This document shows positions 73-8,284 of a stretch of 64,000 nt of DNA, piece after piece. Position 1 is the stretch's first letter, and every line of letters starts with the position of its first letter. Made by a program: the position numbers and the translations under genes. The stretch is taken from NCBI RefSeq assembly GCF_030269665.1, contig NZ_BSTS01000008.1:62001-126000 (forward strand), written 5' to 3'. The notes under the pieces are model-generated. The model had not been told where the DNA came from, ran no database searches, and was given only the letters and a program-made list of their open reading frames with translations. The DNA is from Actinomycetospora sp. NBRC 106375. Its GTDB lineage: Bacteria > Actinomycetota > Actinomycetes > Mycobacteriales > Pseudonocardiaceae.

Positions 73-110
73 TCAGCTCCGTGACGGTCGCGTCGCGCGG
101 AACCACTTCA
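73..110 (-). repeat. ychF-tail copy A (outer end of the array)
   Basis: Minus-strand codons read VKWFRATRPSRS then TGA at 73-75. The genuine ychF end (site E) reads VVEFRFGSPSRS then TGA. The DNA aligns without gaps over about 35 bases: identical GTTCCGC, eight divergent bases, then 17 of 20 bases matching through the stop. The core GCGGAAC (plus strand) is at 97-103. The stop of the monooxygenase (108-110) lies inside this site. Confidence 0.6.
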
Positions 111-1301
111 CGGACGGGTCGGCGTCGCGGGATCCGGCTCCCGGGCGTCGTCGGGCAGCTCCGGGCCGTTGATCGCACGGTCGAGCAGCTCCCGGAACTC
201 CTGGCTCTCGAAGTCCATGCTCGGCGGTCCCGCGTCGGGGAGCCGGCCGGCCGCGTTCATCCGCCCGATCTCCTGGTTGGCCTCGACGAACGGGCGCATC
301 CGCCGCTCGTAGGCCGCGAACGCGGTCTCGGGGTCCCAGTCCGCGGCGGCCAGGTCGCCGGCCAGCAGGTGGGCACCCACGAGGGCGATGCTGGTGCCCT
401 GCCCGGACATCGGCGACGAGCTGCACGCCGCGTCCCCGAGCAGCCCCACCCGCCCGCTCGACCAGCGGTCCATCAGCACCTGGGCGACCTGGTCGAGGTA
501 GAAGTCCGGGCTGTCGTCCACGTGCTCGAGGATGCGGGAGGTCCACCACCCGAAGCCCGCCATCCGTTCCCGCAGCAGGCGCTTCTGGGCCGCGACGTCG
601 CGGATGTCGACCTCGACGTCGGCCGCCGGGAAGGAGAACATCGCCATCCCCTGCGTGGCGTCCTGGATCGGCCGCAGACCGGCCGACCGGCCGGCCTCCT
701 GGTACTCGATCAGCCAGCGGTCCAGCCCGAACTCGTTCGGCACGCTGTAGAAGGCGAGCACGTGCCCGAGGTGGCGGACGAACCGCTCCCGCGGCCCGAA
801 AACCATCTCCCGCAGGGTCGAGTGCAGGCCGTCGGCCCCGATCACCAGGTCGAAGCGCCGCCGGTCACCGCCCGCGAACACCACGTCGACACCGCCGACG
901 TCCTGGGTCAGCTCGGCGATCCGGTCGCCGAAGACGTACTCGACGTCGTCCCGGGTCGCGTCGTAGAGGACACGGGACAGGTCCCCGCGCAGGATCTCGA
1001 TCTCCGCGATGAACCCGTCGCCCTCGTCGTCCTCGGCGCGGTAGGTCTCGAGGACGGTGCCGTCCGCGTCGACGGAGTACGCCCCGACGGTCTGGGTGCA
1101 CGCCGCGCGCACCTCGGCGTCCAGCCCCATGCGGCGGATGACCTCCTTGGCCACCCCGCGGGCGTCGACCGCCTGCCCGCCCGGACGCAGCTCCGGGGCG
1201 CGCTCCACCACGGTCACCTCGGCGCCGCGCCGCCGCAGCCCGTGGGCCAGCGCCGGCCCGGCGATGCTCGCCCCGGCCACCAACACCCGCACACCACTCA
1301 C
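108..1301 (-). CDS. FAD-dependent monooxygenase (PheA/TetX-like)
   Basis: 397 aa from a GTG at 1301. This start puts the N-terminal Rossmann motif (VAGASIAGPALAHG) right at the front and has a purine-rich GGGGGC upstream; a longer frame to 1508 lacks homology. The NADH/FAD-binding signature is followed by GADG at residues 155-158 and the GDAA FAD-ribityl motif at about 289. These are typical of group A aromatic hydroxylases of about 400 aa, which insert one oxygen atom into a substrate using NAD(P)H. The substrate is unknown. Its GTG overlaps the stop of ychF-tail copy B (GTGA), and its stop lies inside copy A, so the gene fills one module of the ychF hotspot and is probably horizontally acquired. 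Confidence 0.85.
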   Translation of the reverse strand: MSGVRVLVAGASIAGPALAHGLRRRGAEVTVVERAPELRPGGQAVDARGVAKEVIRRMGLDAEVRAACTQTVGAYSVDADGTVLETYRAEDDEGDGFIAEIEILRGDLSRVLYDATRDDVEYVFGDRIAELTQDVGGVDVVFAGGDRRRFDLVIGADGLHSTLREMVFGPRERFVRHLGHVLAFYSVPNEFGLDRWLIEYQEAGRSAGLRPIQDATQGMAMFSFPAADVEVDIRDVAAQKRLLRERMAGFGWWTSRILEHVDDSPDFYLDQVAQVLMDRWSSGRVGLLGDAACSSSPMSGQGTSIALVGAHLLAGDLAAADWDPETAFAAYERRMRPFVEANQEIGRMNAAGRLPDAGPPSMDFESQEFRELLDRAINGPELPDDAREPDPATPTRP

Positions 1302-1353
1302 CGCGCCCCCCTGCCGGTCCGGATCACGGCCCGGATCGTAGGGGCGTCGGGCT

Positions 1354-1378
1354 GGACGTCGAAGCGGAACTCCACCGA
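1354..1378 (-). repeat. ychF-tail copy B
   Basis: Minus-strand codons read SVEFRFDV and continue in frame with about 17 more codons to a TGA at 1298-1300 that overlaps the monooxygenase GTG. VEFRF matches the real ychF end exactly; core GCGGAAC is at 1364-1370. It separates the monooxygenase module from the VapBC module. Confidence 0.6.
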
Positions 1379-1407
1379 GTGACGCAGCTGTGCAACCGGT
1401 CCGTCGC

Positions 1408-1779
1408 TCAGGACGACTCGTCGAACACGTCGACGCCACGGTCGGCGGCGGCGGCCAGAAGGCGCTCGTCGCGCGTCCAGAGAGCGGCCCGCGCGAGCCG
1501 GGCGGCACCGAGGAGCTGGACGTCGATGACGCTCAGCCCGCGACCCCACAGCCGGTCCCGGTCGACGAGTGACAGAAGCTCGTCGTGGCGCAGTCGCGGT
1601 GCTCGGATCAGAGCCCTGAGCAACGAGAGCGTCGCATCGCGTCGTGCGATCGAACCCAACGCGATCTCCTCGACGATGCCGTCGTGCGTCGCCACGACAT
1701 CGTCACCGAGCAGCCTTGAGAGGGCGGGTTCGGTCCGGTGCAGATGATCGATCCACACCGACGTGTCGACCAGGATCAC
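1408..1779 (-). CDS. vapC: VapC-type PIN-domain ribonuclease toxin
   Basis: 123 aa. It opens with the PIN signature ILVDTSVWIDH, and acidic residues sit where PIN nucleases need them: Asp5, Glu37/38, Asp86 and Asp104. VapC toxins are Mg-dependent RNases that cut tRNA or rRNA when freed from VapB. The start ATG overlaps the 3' end of the upstream antitoxin (ATGA), as expected of a translationally coupled VapBC pair. The gene is co-directional with ychF and lies in the module between tail copies B and C. Target RNA is not predictable. Confidence 0.9.
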   Translation of the reverse strand: MILVDTSVWIDHLHRTEPALSRLLGDDVVATHDGIVEEIALGSIARRDATLSLLRALIRAPRLRHDELLSLVDRDRLWGRGLSVIDVQLLGAARLARAALWTRDERLLAAAADRGVDVFDESS

Positions 1780-1973
1780 GCGACCTCACCGCGCCGGCGT
1801 GGCGCCGCCGTCGCGTCCGGATCCGTACCTCCGAGTGCAGCGAGCCGACGTGCACTCTCGACGCGCACGAGAGTCTCCAGGCCGGCACGCAGGAGTGCGG
1901 AGCGCTCTGCGATCCCGGTCAGCTCGGTCGCCTGCGCAACGAGATCGTCGTCGATCGTCACCGTGGTGCGCAT
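1776..1973 (-). CDS. vapB: VapB-type antitoxin
   Basis: 65 aa. The N-terminus MRTTVTIDDDLVAQATELTG is a ribbon-helix-helix DNA-binding start (beta strand, then helix), followed by ALLRAGLETLVRVE and a basic, presumably disordered C-terminal tail that would wrap the toxin. This matches the short VapB/DUF2191 type. It is the first gene of a two-gene operon with vapC, overlapping it by four bases. Such antitoxins usually repress their own promoter; upstream sequence 1974-2070 would hold the operator, but I see no clear palindrome. Confidence 0.85.
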   Translation of the reverse strand: MRTTVTIDDDLVAQATELTGIAERSALLRAGLETLVRVESARRLAALGGTDPDATAAPRRRGEVA

Positions 1974-2070
1974 ACACCCTCCGCATCACACGCCGCATCA
2001 TCTGATGCGTTCATGATGCCAGGGCAGGCGGCAGGTCCGACAGTCAGGAGCGACCCGGCATCGGGAAGGG

Positions 2071-2100
2071 TCAGACGTTGAAGCGGAACCACGTCCTGGG
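2071..2100 (-). repeat. ychF-tail copy C with the native FRFNV ending
   Basis: Minus-strand codons read TWFRFNV then TGA (2071-2073). FRFNV-stop is the usual C-terminus of the YchF/OLA1 family, yet it sits 2.3 kb from the ychF body, whose own ending is FRFGSPSRS. Core GCGGAAC is at 2083-2089. This looks like the original ychF end, displaced by later insertions, or a tail delivered by an earlier element. Confidence 0.6.
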
Positions 2101-2105
2101 CGTTT

Positions 2106-2242
2106 CGCCGCCGACGACTCGCTGTTGTAGTGCACGACCACTGCGGCACCATCGGCCGCGACCGTCTCGCAGATCAACCGTCCCAGGTTCCGGGACGCCC
2201 CTCCGAAGACCACGACCTTGCCCGACGGGCTCGCTTCGACAC
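2106..2242 (-). pseudogene. Truncated short-chain dehydrogenase (N-terminal fragment)
   Basis: Minus-strand translation KVVVFGGASRNLGRLICE, then about 20 further residues ending YNSESSAA, is the cofactor-binding first beta-alpha-beta unit of an NAD(P)-dependent SDR (GGASRNLG glycine motif). A good ribosome site (AAGGAGG) precedes GTG at 2242, but that GTG is one base out of frame with the motif, so a small deletion is likely near 2235. Homology ends abruptly at about 2106, where ychF-tail copy C begins; the rest of a normal SDR of about 250 aa is absent. It is a remnant cut at a module boundary. Confidence 0.6.
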
Positions 2243-2540
2243 GACTCCTCCTTCACCGGCGTCCAGTGCGAGACCACGCGCTGGCAGGAGCGGGCGGGGG
2301 AACGGAACAACGATCATGGACTCGCGCCACCAGCACCGCTTGTGCGCGGGACCGGCCTCCACCGATGCTCGGACGACGTCAGCGGTCCGAACGCGTCGAC
2401 CGACCGGGCCGGTCGTGGTGCCGCGAAGCAGCCGGCGACCGACGACGGCGCCGTCCTCGTGACGATCGACCACGCATGGTGACAATAGCGCTTGAGTAAC
2501 GATTGCAACCGTCCTTGTGGCACAGCCCTGGGCGCGCGGA

Positions 2541-2560
2541 CTAACTGATAGTACAAGTAG
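2541..2560. promoter_or_regulatory. Candidate operator upstream of the DUF6790 gene
   Basis: The 20-base stretch starts CTAACTGATAG and ends ACAAGTAG, an AT-rich island with imperfect two-fold symmetry (CTA...TAG ends) in a GC-rich region, 35 bases before the GTG at 2595. Sites of this look are bound by HxlR/MarR-type repressors, but no such regulator gene is in the window. Assignment is speculative. Confidence 0.25.
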
Positions 2561-2594
2561 CCGCGAGCACACATCGCCTGAAAGGACTACTCCG

Positions 2595-3143
2595 GTGACT
2601 TCCATTCTGTTCCTGGTGCTGGGGAACTTCACCGTCACGTTCCTCATCGTCGGCCTCATCGCGAGCGGAATCTCGCTCGCCCGTCGCCCGAGGCCGTTGA
2701 CCGCCCGGCTCGTAATCGAGGACCTGTTCGCCTACTTCCTGTTGTTCTCGGTCGGCATCTCGTTCCTCTACAACTTCGCGTTCCACGTGTTCGCTGGCGA
2801 GTTCGCCGCGACGCTGATCGGCTGGGCGGACAGCCCGTTCCAGGCCGAGGTCGGGTACGCGAGCCTCGGTTTCGGCCTGGTCGGTCTCTGCGCCTTCCGT
2901 GCCTCCCTCGGGGTGCGGGGCGTGGCCGTCCTCGGTCCCTCGTGCTTCCTGCTCGGGGCCGCGGTCGGCCACATCGTAGAGATCGTCGGGAGCAACAACC
3001 TGTCGCCCGGCAACGCGGGCGCGATCCTCTACACAGACATCGGCCTGCCGATCATCGGCGCCGCGCTCTGGCTCGCCCAGCGTCACCTGGAGCGCACCAC
3101 CGCGGCGGCGACCTCGGGCGTCCCGGTCCCGGCCTCGACCTAG
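2595..3143 (+). CDS. DUF6790-like integral membrane protein
   Basis: 182 aa from GTG 2595, chosen because GAAAGGAC lies just upstream and the protein then begins directly with a hydrophobic helix (ILFLVLGNFTVTFLIVGLIA). About five membrane segments follow. The central part has a conserved-looking loop, GWADSPFQAEVGYASLGFG, typical in my memory of DUF6790 proteins, whose function is not known. It is the only plus-strand gene among the four ychF modules and faces away from the truncated SDR gene, which may once have been its divergent partner. Base composition of 2460-2600 is visibly less GC-rich than the neighbourhood, in keeping with acquired DNA. Confidence 0.65.
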   Translation: MTSILFLVLGNFTVTFLIVGLIASGISLARRPRPLTARLVIEDLFAYFLLFSVGISFLYNFAFHVFAGEFAATLIGWADSPFQAEVGYASLGFGLVGLCAFRASLGVRGVAVLGPSCFLLGAAVGHIVEIVGSNNLSPGNAGAILYTDIGLPIIGAALWLAQRHLERTTAAATSGVPVPAST

Positions 3144-3214
3144 ACGGAGCGGGCCACCATCGACACCCGGGGCTCTGGGAGCCTTCGGTCGACGGCTACG
3201 AACGTGGTCGACGG

Positions 3215-3250
3215 CTACGAAGGTGACGGTGATCCAAAGCGGAACTCCAC
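3215..3250 (-). repeat. ychF-tail copy D
   Basis: Minus-strand codons read VEFRFGSPSPS then TAG (3215-3217), differing from the real ychF ending by one residue (R to P) plus the stop codon. Plus-strand match to site E: GGTGATCC, one differing base, then AAGCGGAACTCCAC. Core GCGGAAC is at 3239-3245. It lies 95 bases beyond the end of the HicB-like gene. Confidence 0.65.
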
Positions 3251-3339
3251 CTCTATCGGTTCAACGTCAGCCACGTGATCGACGTGAGTTTCCAGCGATC
3301 GCTCGGCGAACCGTCCCTCTATCGAGCAGCCTAGAGACA

Positions 3340-4014
3340 TCAAGCGGCGACGAGCGCCCCGGTGCGGCGTGCGACCGCCGATGTGCGCTCGGCGCGCTTG
3401 CGCTGAGACTGGCCGGGCATAGCGTCACGCGGCCCGCCGTGGTCGCTGTCGATGACCGCGACCAGGTCCGCGATTGTGGCGTCGGGCCCACCTAGGCCAG
3501 CGTCGTGCAGTGTCCGGGTGCCGGGAGCCTCGACCTCGACGTTCGGCGAGGCGAGCGGCATCCACCACACACCGCCCTCTTGACCGTAGGGCGCGCTCAC
3601 CTGCACGGCGTCCATCCGCCCCAGCTGCTCGCTCACCCACTGAATCCGATCAGTGGGAAGGCAGCAAACGAACACGATGTCGCCCGCACTCGACTCAAGC
3701 GCGGTCCTGCGTGTCGTGGCCAGCACCTCCGGTCGAGCAAGCCCGTCCCGCAGTACGTTCGCGACACGTTCCCTCCGCCCCGCGGCGTGATCCACAGCGG
3801 TCCGGATGAAGATGTCAGGCGCCACCTCGTGCTCGACATGCTCGATCACCGTGGTGTTCGGCCACTCGTTCTGGAGGTGAGCCTCAGCAGCGCGCGCCCA
3901 CTCGTCTCGTGCCACAGGCAGCGACGATCCACCCGCGTAGACGCTGACAGGGCGGGAGTAGGCCTCCCACTGGTCATGTCCGACCTGGCGGAAGATCGCG
4001 TGAACATCGCTCAC
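3340..4014 (-). CDS. Possible HicB-like antitoxin with long C-terminal extension
   Basis: 224 aa. The first 50 residues (VHAIFRQVGHDQWEAYSRPV, then a helix beginning ARDEWARAAEAHL) resemble the degraded RNase H fold of HicB: an AIF...W-A strand pair, then an Ala/Glu-rich helix. The remaining 170 residues are unlike anything I recognise and end in a basic tail. The ATG overlaps the stop of the upstream HicA-like gene by four bases, so the two are co-translated. HicB partners are usually 70-150 aa, so this is long. An alternative is an unrelated protein of unknown function translated with HicA. Confidence 0.5.
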   Translation of the reverse strand: MSDVHAIFRQVGHDQWEAYSRPVSVYAGGSSLPVARDEWARAAEAHLQNEWPNTTVIEHVEHEVAPDIFIRTAVDHAAGRRERVANVLRDGLARPEVLATTRRTALESSAGDIVFVCCLPTDRIQWVSEQLGRMDAVQVSAPYGQEGGVWWMPLASPNVEVEAPGTRTLHDAGLGGPDATIADLVAVIDSDHGGPRDAMPGQSQRKRAERTSAVARRTGALVAA

Positions 4015-4262
4015 GGCAGCTTCCCCTTCCGCGCGACGTGCCGGGCCTGGTCCAAGGTCAACCCGACGTCATCCACCAGGATACGGCGAAAAGTACCGCC
4101 GGTGACCTCCACGCCATCGTGCTTGCTGAAGGTGAATCTCGTCTTGCCGTCTCGACTCACGAACGTGTGGTGCGAGCCCTCGACGTGGATGGCCTCGCCG
4201 CACAGGCGTACGAGGATCGCCCGGAGCCTCTGCGCCTTGATCGTGGGGAACTCGTTGCCCAT
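4011..4262 (-). CDS. HicA-like mRNA interferase toxin
   Basis: 83 aa. The segment VEGSHHTFVSRDGKTRFTFS carries the G-S-H-H motif (residues 29-32) that holds the catalytic histidine of HicA, a double-stranded-RNA-binding-fold toxin of 60-80 aa that cleaves mRNA. N-terminal PTIKAQRLRAILVRLCGE fits its first helix. The C-terminal stretch ILVDDVGLTLDQARHV is atypical. It is the first gene of a two-gene unit with the 224-aa protein and co-directional with ychF, inside the module between tail copies D and E. HicA-first order is the common arrangement for hicAB pairs. Confidence 0.65.
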   Translation of the reverse strand: MGNEFPTIKAQRLRAILVRLCGEAIHVEGSHHTFVSRDGKTRFTFSKHDGVEVTGGTFRRILVDDVGLTLDQARHVARKGKLP

Positions 4263-4341
4263 CTGCCCTCGTCGACTACGACCTTCGCAGGTAGCGCGGC
4301 TGCTGATCCGGTCTGTTGTCTCGTAGTCGTTGGAGTTGTCG

Positions 4342-4380
4342 TCAGCTGCGTGATGGTGATCCGAAGCGGAACTCCACGAC
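4342..4380 (-). repeat. ychF-tail copy E (true end of ychF)
   Basis: Codons VVEFRFGSPSRS then TGA at 4342-4344. This is the copy attached to the intact gene. The altered last six residues relative to the family FNV ending mark the point of exchange inside GTTCCGCTTC. The 35-base match to copy A delimits the whole array. Confidence 0.6.
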
Positions 4381-5427
4381 GTCGCCGTCGTGCATGACGT
4401 AGTCCTTGCCCTCCATGCGGACCTTGCCCGCGGTCTTGGCCGCGTTCATCGACCCGGCCGCGACGAGGTCGTCGTAGGACACGATCTCGGCCTTGATGAA
4501 GCCCTTCTGGAAGTCGGTGTGGATCACGCCGGCGGCCTCGGGCGCCGTGGCGCCGATCCGGATCGTCCAGGCGCGCGACTCCTTGGGGCCCGCCGTGAGG
4601 TAGGTCTGCAGGCCGAGGGTGCGGAACCCGGCGCGGGCCAGGGCGTCGAGACCGGGCTCGGGCTGGCCGATCGACTCGAGCAGCTCCAGCGCCGACTCCG
4701 CGTCGAGCTCGAGGAGCTCCTGCTCGACCTTCGCGTCGAGGAACACCGACTCGGCGGGGGCGACGAGCTCCGCGAGCTCCTTGCGCCGCGCGTCGTCGGT
4801 GAGCACCGGCTCGTCGGCGTTGAAGACGTAGAGGAACGGCTTGACCGTCATGAGGTTCAGCTCGCGTAGGCGCGGCGAGTCCAGGCCCGCCTGGAACAGC
4901 GTCCGGCCCTCGTTCAGCACGGACTGCGCGTGCTGGATCTCGTCGACGGCGGCCTTGGTCTCCTTCTTGACCCGCGCCTCCTTCTCCAGGCGCGGGAGGG
5001 CCTTCTCGATCGTCTGCAGGTCGGCGAGGACGAGCTCGGTCGCGATCGTCTCGATGTCGGCCGCAGGATCGACGCGCCCGTCGACGTGCACGACGTCGTC
5101 GTCGGCGAACACCCGCACGACCTGGCAGATCGCGTCGGCCTCGCGGATGTTGGCCAGGAACTTGTTGCCCAGCCCGGCGCCCTCGCTCGCCCCCGAGACG
5201 ATCCCGGCGATGTCCACGAACGACACCGTCGCCGGCACGATCTTCTCCGACGAGAACATCTCCGCGAGACGGTCGAGGCGGGGATCGCGCAGGGGGACGA
5301 CGCCGACGTTCGGCTCGATCGTGGCGAAGGGGTAGTTCGCGGCGAGGACGTCGTTGCGGGTCAGGGCGTTGAACATCGTCGACTTGCCCACGTTGGGCAG
5401 GCCGACGATGCCGAGGGTCAAGCTCAC
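4342..5427 (-). CDS. ychF: Redox-regulated ATPase/GTPase YchF (Obg family)
   Basis: 361 aa from GTG 5427 (SLTLGIVGLPNVGKST); the longer frame to 5478 adds a non-homologous leader. P-loop GLPNVGKS is at residues 9-16, the switch region and DIAG (G3) follow at about 68, then a coiled-coil insert and a C-terminal TGS domain (TAGPKESRAWTIRIG through HTDFQKGFIKAEI). YchF is an ATP-preferring ribosome-associated NTPase. The protein should end in FRFNV; here it ends FRFGSPSRS, so the last residues have been replaced at a recombination site. It sits head-to-head with ogt, 85 bases between starts. Confidence 0.95.
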   Translation of the reverse strand: MSLTLGIVGLPNVGKSTMFNALTRNDVLAANYPFATIEPNVGVVPLRDPRLDRLAEMFSSEKIVPATVSFVDIAGIVSGASEGAGLGNKFLANIREADAICQVVRVFADDDVVHVDGRVDPAADIETIATELVLADLQTIEKALPRLEKEARVKKETKAAVDEIQHAQSVLNEGRTLFQAGLDSPRLRELNLMTVKPFLYVFNADEPVLTDDARRKELAELVAPAESVFLDAKVEQELLELDAESALELLESIGQPEPGLDALARAGFRTLGLQTYLTAGPKESRAWTIRIGATAPEAAGVIHTDFQKGFIKAEIVSYDDLVAAGSMNAAKTAGKVRMEGKDYVMHDGDVVEFRFGSPSRS

Positions 5428-5512
5428 GGGATCCCAGTCTGCCAGCGAGGGATCCGTGCGGGCTCCGGCGGCGTCCAACCAGGGTGACGACCGTTCTCAC
5501 CCGGAGGTTCCC

Positions 5513-6052
5513 GTGTCAGCTCTCGCCACCGTGCCCACCGTGCTCGGCCCGTTCACCACGCTCGTCGACGACGAGGGCGTCGTCCTCGCGTCCGGCTGGA
5601 CCGACGACGTCGACGCGCTGCTCGCACCGGTCCACGCCGAGCTGCGGCCCACCGACCCCGCCCGCCGCACCGACCTCGGCGACGTCACCCGGGCGGTCGC
5701 CGCCTTCCACGACGGCGACCCCGCGCCGGCGGCCGCGGTGCCGGTGCGCCAGATCAGCGGGCCGGCGACGACCGCGATCTGGGACCGGATGCGTCTCGTG
5801 CCGCCCGGGCAGCCCACGACGTACGGCGAGCTCGCCGAGGCCGCCGGGCACCCGCGCGGCCACCGTCTCGCGGCGCGGGCGTGCGTGCGCAACGCGACGA
5901 CGCTGTTCGTGCCGTGCCACCGCGTGCTGCGCCGCGGCGGCGGGCTCGGCGGCTACCGCTGGGGTCTCGAGATCAAGGACCGGCTCTTGGCGATGGAGGC
6001 CAGCTGGCTGCCCGAGGAGCCGGCCGCCGAGGGATCAGTGTCGGGGGTCTGA
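5513..6052 (+). CDS. ogt: Methylated-DNA-[protein]-cysteine S-methyltransferase
   Basis: 179 aa from GTG 5513, preceded by GGAGG at 6-base spacing. The suicide active site FVPCHRVL places the acceptor cysteine at residue 135, followed by GGGLGGYRWGLEIK, the usual Ogt/Ada C-terminus. The helix-turn-helix region (TTYGELAEAAGHPRGHRLAARACVRN in two pieces) provides the arginine finger and DNA contacts. It removes methyl groups from O6-methylguanine irreversibly. The N-terminal domain is short and degenerate, as in actinobacterial Ogt. The final codons are followed 15 bases later by rmuC, probably co-transcribed. Confidence 0.93.
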   Translation: MSALATVPTVLGPFTTLVDDEGVVLASGWTDDVDALLAPVHAELRPTDPARRTDLGDVTRAVAAFHDGDPAPAAAVPVRQISGPATTAIWDRMRLVPPGQPTTYGELAEAAGHPRGHRLAARACVRNATTLFVPCHRVLRRGGGLGGYRWGLEIKDRLLAMEASWLPEEPAAEGSVSGV

Positions 6053-7342: not shown

Positions 7343-8284
7343 GTGACCAGTACACGGGACGACACCGCGTCCCCCGGGGCGGTCGGCCCCGGGGAGCGCT
7401 CCGTCGTGCGGTCACTGCGGGGTCTGCGCTGGTGGGGCTCGCTCGCGCTGGCCGCCGTGCTCACCGGCGCCGGGATCGCCGTCGACCTGCTGACCTCGGG
7501 CGAGCTCGGGGTCGTGTTCACGGCCTGTTTCGCCGGCGGGTGCATCCTCGCGACGGCCTGGGCGCGGCGCGACTCGCTGTTCGTCCCGCTCGTGCAGCCG
7601 CCGCTGCTGCTCGCGGTCGGGGTGCCCGTCGTGGTCGCCGCGACCGGGGGGCTCTCCCGCGCGCGGGGCACCGCGTCGGCGCTGCTCGCCATCGGCGGGC
7701 CCCTCGTGAACGCCTTCCCGACCCTGGCGATCACCACCGCGGTCAGCCTCGCGCTCGGTTTCGTCCGCACCCGCCTGGAGCCCTACCGGCGCGCGGACGA
7801 CGACCTCGACCCCGACGCCCGGCCCGCGCGCGATCCCCGGGACCGGGATCCCCGCGACAGGGACCCGCGGGAGCGTCGTCCACGAGAGCCGCGCGACCGC
7901 GACCCGCGGGACCGGGATCCGCGCGACCGGGACCGCGACCCCCGCGACCGCGATCCGCGCGATCGGGACCCGCGCGATCGGGACCCGCGCGATCGGGACC
8001 CGCGGGAGCGTCGTCCACGAGAGCCGCGTGACCGCGACCGCGACCCCCGCGACCGCGACCCCCGCGACCGCGACCCCCGCGACCGCGACCCCCGCGACCG
8101 CGACGCGCGTGACCGGGACCCCCGGGACCGCGACCGACCCAAGCGCGTGCCGGTCGAAGCGCGCCCCGCCCGGGAGCGCGACGCCCGACGCCGCCCGTCA
8201 CGTCCCGACGACCCGGACGACGAGTTCGGCCCCGGCGTCCGCCGCGTCCCGCGCCGCGTCGACGGCCCCGACACCCCGCGCTGA
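7343..8284 (+). CDS. DUF6542 membrane protein with Arg/Asp-rich repeat tail
   Basis: 313 aa. Residues 25-145 hold about four hydrophobic segments (WWGSLALAAVLTGAGIAVDL, LGVVFTACFAGGCILATAW, PPLLLAVGVPVVVAATGGL, VNAFPTLAITTAVSLALGF) and match the DUF6542 domain found beside ispH in actinobacteria. From about residue 150 to 275 the protein is a charged low-complexity tail of repeating RDRDP/RERRP units, then a basic-acidic end. Function is unknown; the tail is presumably cytoplasmic and disordered. The repeat DNA (7831-8110) is built of near-identical 12-18-base units and probably varies in length among strains. Confidence 0.8.
   Translation: MTSTRDDTASPGAVGPGERSVVRSLRGLRWWGSLALAAVLTGAGIAVDLLTSGELGVVFTACFAGGCILATAWARRDSLFVPLVQPPLLLAVGVPVVVAATGGLSRARGTASALLAIGGPLVNAFPTLAITTAVSLALGFVRTRLEPYRRADDDLDPDARPARDPRDRDPRDRDPRERRPREPRDRDPRDRDPRDRDRDPRDRDPRDRDPRDRDPRDRDPRERRPREPRDRDRDPRDRDPRDRDPRDRDPRDRDARDRDPRDRDRPKRVPVEARPARERDARRRPSRPDDPDDEFGPGVRRVPRRVDGPDTPR
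7831..8110 (+). repeat. Tandem GACCGCGACCC-type repeats in coding sequence
   Basis: About 280 bases are assembled from variants of CGCGACCGGGACCC, with one unit (GGGAGCGTCGTCCACGAGAG) appearing twice, near 7868 and 8007. All unit lengths are multiples of three, so copy-number change keeps the reading frame. Confidence 0.8.

Follow-up and report, generated by a model that had tools for sequence, protein, structure and literature searches.

The staphylococcal cassette chromosome (SCC) inserts at rlmH through the large serine recombinases/integrases (LSRs) CcrA, CcrB, and CcrC; its target is the 3' end of a conserved protein gene, and it forms tandem composites and has relatives that lack a recombinase. 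Cis-mobilizable elements (CIMEs) derive from integrative and conjugative elements (ICEs) with tyrosine integrases, and accretion of this kind is known at fda in Streptococcus. In integrons, the attC core follows the consensus GTTRRRY/RYYYAAC. Here we describe a row of repeated ychF ends, or tails, with small accessory modules between them, at the 3' end of ychF in Actinomycetospora sp. NBRC 106375. The window, by which we mean the whole stretch of 64,000 nt that was analysed, is G000:C8:62001-126000 of a high-GC genome of 6.79 Mb (G and L numbers label genomes and loci, and G000 is the window's genome). From sequence comparison we conclude, with a probability of roughly 0.8, that the end of ychF is the attB of a clade of LSRs and that the tails and modules arose through LSR integration.

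Like SCC, the ychF array would reflect LSR integration at the 3' end of a conserved protein gene, with units that are tandem and lack a recombinase; it differs in its host gene, ychF and not rlmH, in its occurrence in actinobacteria, and in the small size of many modules (0.5-1.7 kb). Like CIMEs, its recombinase-less units lie between att sites and are stacked beside the site of an autonomous element, but CIMEs are larger and come from tyrosine-integrase ICEs. LSR elements matching the ychF array were seen in other genomes only. With integrons it shares a row of small gene units mostly in one orientation; however, the ychF sites are not of the attC type and instead form a dyad site of the LSR type. 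What is new here is the ychF site and the tiny LSR-less modules stacked on it, and the machinery is of a known kind. Judged by titles and the starts of abstracts, we found no description of a ychF attachment site or array in the open-licence literature.

The original prediction placed ychF tails at five sites, A to E, dividing the region into four modules. Sites B, D, and E are borne out by the 14-mer AAGCGGAACTCCAC, of which the 6.79-Mb genome has exactly three copies, at B (1362-1375), D (3237-3250), and E (4364-4377). Among 17 other genomes of the genus, it occurs once, at the ychF end, in seven and is absent from ten. Site C is real but decayed and site A is not counted, which reduces the array to four tails and three modules plus an ordinary oxygenase neighbour. 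The host gene and its sites, in window coordinates, are as follows.

4342..5478, minus strand: ychF, host gene of the attachment site (open reading frame (ORF) from TTG; PF06071, E 6.9e-38)
4350..4401, minus strand: site E, putative attL; ychF left half, GT at 4376-4377, element right half-site GGATCACCATC
3225..3268, minus strand: site D, probable attP-like junction of two tandem elements; GT at 3249-3250, left half ACGTTGAACC, right half GGATCACCGTC
2037..2100, minus strand: site C, decayed tail, then a genus-typical ychF end and ~53 nt of ychF 3' flank
1338..1400, minus strand: site B, attR-like; left half GGTTGCACAGCTGCGTCACTC, GT at 1374-1375, ychF-type right half, shortened native flank
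73..110, minus strand: site A, not counted as an attachment site

The window's YchF ends in VVEFRFGSPSRS*, a C-terminus shared within the genus only with G011, where the ychF end is also of the site E type; the end VVEFRFNV* is found in 15/17 genus loci. Sites D and E agree at 93% over 28 nt. The left half of D lies ~6 nt closer to the crossover than the consensus and resembles the left half beside the LSR of G427; in register, it scores at chance level (p 0.44). At site C the crossover region lacks 5 nt in our own reading, and the sequence downstream, TTCAACGTCTGACCCTTCCCGATGCCGGGTCG..., is similar over ~53 nt to the end of ychF and its 3' flank in their native state in G013; compared with site E alone, C matches at 16/35, which is not above chance. 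The left half of B, GGTTGCACAGCTGCGTCACTC, matches the LSR-adjacent site of G705 at 15/24 (empirical p 0.0008). Site A reaches 23/35 against E in the best ungapped 35 nt, a value equalled by 0.4% of 1,500 control stretches of 65 nt; this rate is too common for a 4.4-kb scan, so the match is not separable from chance, and the right half-site score of A has an empirical p of 0.06. The pattern GAGTTCCGSTTYGGATCACCRTCAC, sought in 390 genomes of the family, is exact only in G000 (two copies) and G011, and occurs with 2-3 mismatches in four others.

Extra tails are not confined to this genome. We scanned the 3' flanks of 90 loci, 17 from the genus and 73 of 80 named loci (in the other seven, the ychF end was not located), with a 19-nt profile of ychF ends. 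At a score of at least 14, there were 34 matches in the ychF direction, compared with one on the reverse strand and one in the 5' flanks. After exclusion of three matches at 23 nt from the ychF site, an extra tail lies downstream of ychF in 22/90 loci: four of the 17 in the genus (G000, G001, G003, and G011) and 18 of the 73 named loci, from Nocardia, Mycobacterium and its relatives, Dietzia, Corynebacterium, Gordonia, Prauserella, and two metagenome-assembled genomes (MAGs). The best-ranked named relative by ychF is a Pseudonocardia MAG (81%). Rows of tails are found in Prauserella aidingensis L085 (at 66, 4488, 5286, and 7732) and Mycolicibacter longobardus L091 (at 1033, 5677, and 7029). 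A second copy at 17/19 or better accompanies 9/90 ychF ends versus 7/1,800 random 19-mers from within ychF; at 16/19 the counts are 15/90 and 48/1,800. For more distant families, 80 loci were chosen among the matches listed, seven of them for a nearby second match; in the 79 scanned, tails occur in those seven and in 0/72 others, and a displaced tail was seen later in the locus left out, L159. Short tandem repeats of 67-69 nt, each with a ychF tail, follow ychF in L154 (at 69 and 138 nt) and L156 (at 67 nt).

The structure of the site was read from 32 second tails, comprising the 34 profile matches minus five (G001, the three at 23 nt, and L091 5677) plus L071 3403, L157, and L158; the long or tandem tails of L152-L156 were excluded. 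The set was picked by a profile spanning -4..+14, where position 0 is the G of GAG in V-E-F-R-F. The identity of these tails to their own ychF rises from 0.53 at -4 to 1.00 at -3, where a GT begins (G in 32/32 and T in 30/32 at -3,-2), and upstream of the GT the tails have a motif in common with one another. This fits the short shared core of an LSR site, with crossover at a single dinucleotide. Since the halves of one serine-integrase site must be reverse-complementary about the crossover, we compared left and right halves over 32 axes, pooling loci because few single loci show both halves. The axis at -2.5, in the GT, was the best of the 32 in all four set combinations (32 tails or nine LSR-adjacent left halves versus ten survey or six LSR-genome right halves); the first dyad test used 19/32 tails and the repeat all 32. 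In our own reading, the arms are GACGTTG at -27..-21 with CAACGTC at +16..+22 and CGGAAC at -12..-7 with GTTCCG at +2..+7. The sites behave as the two halves of an LSR attachment site centred on GT, and the integron-like outcome that had been suggested is not supported.

LSR genes are found beside such sites in viral contigs and in other chromosomes. An exact-tail search of viral contigs returned six: two are ychF itself, one encodes an L153-family tyrosine integrase, and the other three carry an LSR with both Resolvase and Recombinase domains (PF00239, PF07508), whose start lies 47-57 nt from the tail. On these three tails, a left-half profile built from 30/32 bacterial tails (L090 and L140 left out) gives empirical p values of 6.7e-4, 5e-5, and <1e-5. 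An LSR profile search of 387 genomes, in which only four candidates per genome were scored for the rows listed, gave five top matches at 544-630 bits, with the next at 371. A tail lies ~25-50 nt from the LSR start in 4/5 of these and in 0/25 other fetched loci with 1.5-kb flanks (Fisher p 1.8e-4). In the five genomes and in G411, a single ychF, the LSR, and a displaced tail stand in line, and the distance from the ychF end to the displaced tail is 6.7, 8.3, 11.0, 14.0, 15.1, and 17.0 kb (these stretches were read in part); G427 has a further tail beyond the displaced one. A search for recombinases associated with ychF tails had been proposed; they are present in other genomes, as LSRs and as tyrosine integrases, though no such LSR was found in G000 at the thresholds used. 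With LSR genes between ychF and the displaced tail in other actinobacteria, the proposal of a new kind of site is not supported.

The end of YchF itself is rewritten in all six LSR genomes (e.g. EFRHGATSSLTKKA, EFRFGST..., and EFRSGLTSKSKG), with ends of the type seen at E and D. These six ends match the right half-site GGATCAACGTC with empirical p values from 0.005 to <2e-5, using a profile from other loci (11 rows, with L140, L312, and L100 left out). Across the survey, a modified ychF end is found in 10/169 loci, G000 and G011 among them. One of these LSRs, that of G151 (L312:8474-9841), is unlike those of SCC: it scores 57, 37, and 35 bits against the CcrB, CcrC, and CcrA models, whose cut-offs are 900, 900, and 700, and its best NCBIfam match is XisF at 91 bits, below the cut-off of 375. 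LSR relatives in named phages amount to 15 records at 34-44% identity, and scans of viral contigs with one LSR and with a Gordonia tyrosine integrase described below yielded no new relative.

Sequence comparison thus places the tails, the half-sites, the dyad centre, and, in other genomes, LSR genes at the same place, consistent with the following mechanism. The last codons of ychF would be the attB of an LSR clade, and strands would be exchanged at the GT of the V-E-F-R-F Val codon. Integration would join the left half from ychF to the element's right half-site, giving YchF new last codons (GSPSRS in the window), while the old ychF end, now preceded by the element's left half-site, would be displaced downstream as a tail; repeated integrations would leave a row of tails with modules between them. 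In the window, E would be attL, D the junction of two tandem elements, and B and the decayed C displaced ends, with three modules, recombinase-less among the ORFs scanned, added stepwise. This order of events at the window locus, and an LSR of the clade that has since been lost or that acted in trans as the agent, is what we infer. That small accessory modules accumulated step by step at a protein gene's 3' end, the core of the original prediction, is supported.

Several observations weigh against this reading. Ordinary sequence upstream in ychF scores high on the left-half profile (median 8.2), as a shared half-site would, so the profile is not independent of ychF and alone is not decisive; in leave-one-out scoring, only 12/30 left halves reach p<0.01 and 16 reach p<0.05, and those of G011 and L100 are unlike LSR sites (p 0.46 and 0.25). 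The G411 LSR is more divergent (218 bits, a partial match; 41% identity) and lies 1.7 kb from its tail, and that of G653 lies 4 kb from its own. In G000, neither a search with one LSR (E<=1e-20; 30/30 candidates scored) nor one with the profile (1e-60; only 4/43 candidates scored) found a member of the clade. At most array loci ychF keeps its native FNV* end, which hides the right half-site; this would follow if the right half of the element mimics ychF and regenerates attB, or if homologous recombination repaired ychF. Relatives with a single clean ychF end, which had been called for, do exist (13/17 genus loci at profile score 14), but VapBC or VapB/VapC-like genes stand directly after ychF with no second tail in G017 and G015, both among these 13, and in L094 and L110, and modules are shared with L089, L111, L213, and L218, where there is no tail (at a threshold of 8 for L089, L094, L110, and L111 and of 11 for L213 and L218). 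Decay could explain these tail-less modules, which nonetheless lower our confidence slightly. Finally, tyrosine integrases also use the ychF end; they do so independently, which makes ychF a shared target.

The genes between the window's tails, and the oxygenase gene beyond site B, are listed below.

4011..4262, minus strand: module E-D, HicA-like toxin (PF07927, E 1.3e-6)
3340..4014, minus strand: module E-D, 224-aa ORF overlapping hicA, no family found
2595..3143, plus strand: module D-C, DUF6790 protein (ORF 2517-3143; PF20589, E 3e-54)
2105..2213, minus strand: module D-C, short remnant of an SDR that stops next to site C (adh_short at E 0.016, under the cut-off)
1776..1973, minus strand: module C-B, VapB antitoxin (PF09957, E 1.9e-11)
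1408..1779, minus strand: module C-B, VapC toxin (PIN; PF01850, E 5.7e-5)
108..1325, minus strand: FAD monooxygenase (ORF 108-1508; PF01494, E 4.9e-21)

The predicted cargo stands for the FAD oxygenase, VapBC, DUF6790, and HicA by Pfam; the SDR is only a short, weak fragment, and the 224-aa ORF that overlaps hicA matches nothing in Pfam at E 0.1 or in NCBIfam at 0.01. As had been noted, the modules carry no recombinase, at least among the nine ORFs scanned in 73..4380. Recombinase-less units between att sites, the hallmark of CIMEs, are present, most clearly module E-D; D-C and C-B each have one decayed side. The B-A stretch is probably old flank, and the FAD oxygenase not a module, because the oxygenase neighbours ychF in other members of the genus: directly after it in G013 and G005, and near it in G002 and G006. 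The same gene is 82-88% identical in DNA between the genus and Nocardia lijiangensis (window 108-1325; L071 ~257-1486), where it is inverted beside ychF. Identity to the N. lijiangensis gene is 88% for G006 and 85% for G005, compared with 77% and 79% for ychF, which points to a transfer at the same place. Elsewhere in the window, the ORF at 7343-8284 has a long low-complexity tail of Arg/Asp/Pro repeats (RDRDPRDRDP...).

Toxin-antitoxin or abortive-infection genes are found in 12/23 annotated modules, and the gene direction is that of ychF in 18/23 (some modules were named by eye). Many modules measure 0.5-1.7 kb, but there are several longer intervals, of up to 4-9 kb, annotated in part only (e.g. 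L066, L071, L085 66-4488, and L091 1033-5677). By family search, the cargo includes VapBC (L122), an RHH antitoxin with a PIN toxin (L103), PhdYefM (L100), a ParE-type toxin (L104), a zeta-like kinase (L130), an SDR (L128), DUF1801 (L077), AbiTii and a HigA-like HTH protein (L091), PIN and MarR/HEPN genes (L085), PIN (L158), an M23 peptidase (G011), and an aldo/keto reductase (G003). A VapC like the window's is present at E<=1e-20 in 18/397 genomes, the window's own included. The four best relatives (52-58% identity) come shortly after ychF or one of its tails, three of them with ychF in the fetched stretch, and in two a tail follows 31-40 nt after VapC, compared with 38 nt in the window. The other 13 genomes have no tail within ~1.5 kb of VapC, and the VapC of G605 is 3.3 kb beyond ychF. 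The vapBC32 locus of Mycobacterium tuberculosis also lies beside ychF.

Some modules recur at different positions in different arrays. The second module of L100 (770-1194, between tails at 732 and 1210) aligns with 25-449 of L113, where it is the first (tail at 465); the two are 78% identical in DNA, end 16 nt before the tail in both, and start 38 nt (L100) and 25 nt (L113) after the previous tail. A HigA module takes the third place in Mycolicibacter L091 and the first in Dietzia L130, with 79.6% DNA identity over 612 nt compared with 77.9% for ychF; only these first 612 nt are shared. The PhdYefM modules of L104 and L111 are 85.4% identical, and their ychF genes 84.0%. For most of the other modules in common, identity is lower than for ychF; only a few pairs therefore support horizontal movement.

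Tyrosine recombinases occur at the ychF end as well. In Gordonia spumicola, a 569-aa enzyme (L090:18970-20679) neighbours a displaced ychF tail at a distance of 9.7 kb from ychF; searches of 27 other genomes (E<=1e-10) and of phages (1e-15) yielded no relative. When the 3' flanks of 169 loci were compared by tblastn with three LSRs and one tyrosine integrase, recombinases turned up in L152 and L153 alone, apart from weak matches; the Gordonia enzyme belongs to a different family. The weak tyrosine-recombinase matches (26-36% to the L153 enzyme) are convergent with ychF and ~150-1100 nt after it, in L109, L142, L170, L174, L177, L182, L183, L192, L195, and L202-L205; they are perhaps domesticated or decayed ychF integrases. 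When a 55-nt LSR-adjacent site was compared with phages and plasmids, the match was to the Streptomyces satellite phage Mulchroom (OQ784832); four other phage and seven plasmid records were weak or ychF itself. Mulchroom resembles the ychF array in having a ychF tail (~40 nt) ~90 nt from an integrase gene, which makes the 3' end of ychF the probable attB of Mulchroom, but its integrase is a tyrosine integrase and its shared ychF stretch is longer. The main text of the Mulchroom paper does not mention attP, attB, or ychF (PMC10690885).

Could tyrosine integrases specific for the ychF end have built the arrays? The 569-aa enzyme does exist within its 9.7-kb Gordonia stretch, with a tail of the short kind, and a 250-aa family is present in L152, L153, and Mulchroom. 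However, the sites of the 250-aa family repeat a longer stretch of ychF than most small-module tails do, and a dyad centre fits a serine integrase. Relatives are also scarce in array genomes, as far as searches with these two enzymes go (no general PF00589 search was made): those of the 569-aa enzyme at E<=1e-10 in 1/28, which is the source itself, those of the 250-aa enzyme at E<=1e-5 in 7/31 and strong only in the two source genomes, and neither in G000 at the thresholds used. We consider this origin unlikely, and a tyrosine integrase as builder of the short-tail sites was set aside because the dyad and the neighbouring genes indicate LSRs. Homologous or illegitimate recombination at the conserved ychF, importing neighbours and leaving partial ychF copies, would account for the ~53 nt of native flank ahead of VapBC at site C, for modules that have no second tail, for the longer, deleted ychF stretch in the L091 tail at 5677, and for an oxygenase that is closer to that of N. 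lijiangensis than ychF is (88% vs 77% in G006). Yet random end points would give no fixed left boundary, no dyad axis, and no LSRs beside tails, and we regard this explanation as quite improbable. Integron-type cassettes we hold to be very improbable indeed: small modules do stand in a row, with 18/23 of those annotated in the ychF direction, but the arms CGGAAC/GTTCCG and GACGTTG/CAACGTC flank a GT, and no attC-type GTTRRRY/RYYYAAC cores are present; an integron integrase (IntI) was not sought by profile.

Within LSR integration, the least certain part is the nature of the modules that lack an LSR. We lean slightly toward true cassettes mobilised in trans. It is also quite conceivable, if somewhat short of an even chance, that the small modules are remnants of full LSR islands from which the integrase and most genes were deleted, the toxin-antitoxin genes being kept since their loss is toxic. 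Toxin-antitoxin genes resist loss, LSR-bearing stretches of 6.7-17 kb do occur at the ychF site, many tails are decayed or missing, and the SDR of the window is a fragment, all of which speaks for remnants. Recurrence argues for cassettes: modules return as units of similar size (L100 and L113), and the HigA module is common to L091 and L130, though only its first 612 nt are shared. Taking LSR-mobilised cassettes as the preferred reading, we tentatively suggest, at a little under even odds, that the ychF end is to actinobacteria what rlmH is to staphylococci: a cassette chromosome driven by LSRs, where visiting LSR islands stack tiny toxin-antitoxin cassettes in rows. The cassettes would carry only att half-sites and be moved in trans; right halves that mimic ychF would regenerate attB and permit unlimited accretion, and other integrations would rewrite the last residues of a conserved GTPase.

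LSR integration at the ychF end would account for the recurring rows of toxin-antitoxin genes beside ychF in several actinobacterial genera, and it offers a mechanism and a minimal site that are open to direct testing. It would also provide LSRs with a predictable genomic target and an example of an integrase that repeatedly rewrites the C-terminus of a conserved GTPase. Should the tiny modules turn out to be mobile, serine-integrase cassettes could be very small indeed, and toxin-antitoxin genes would have a way to spread with them.

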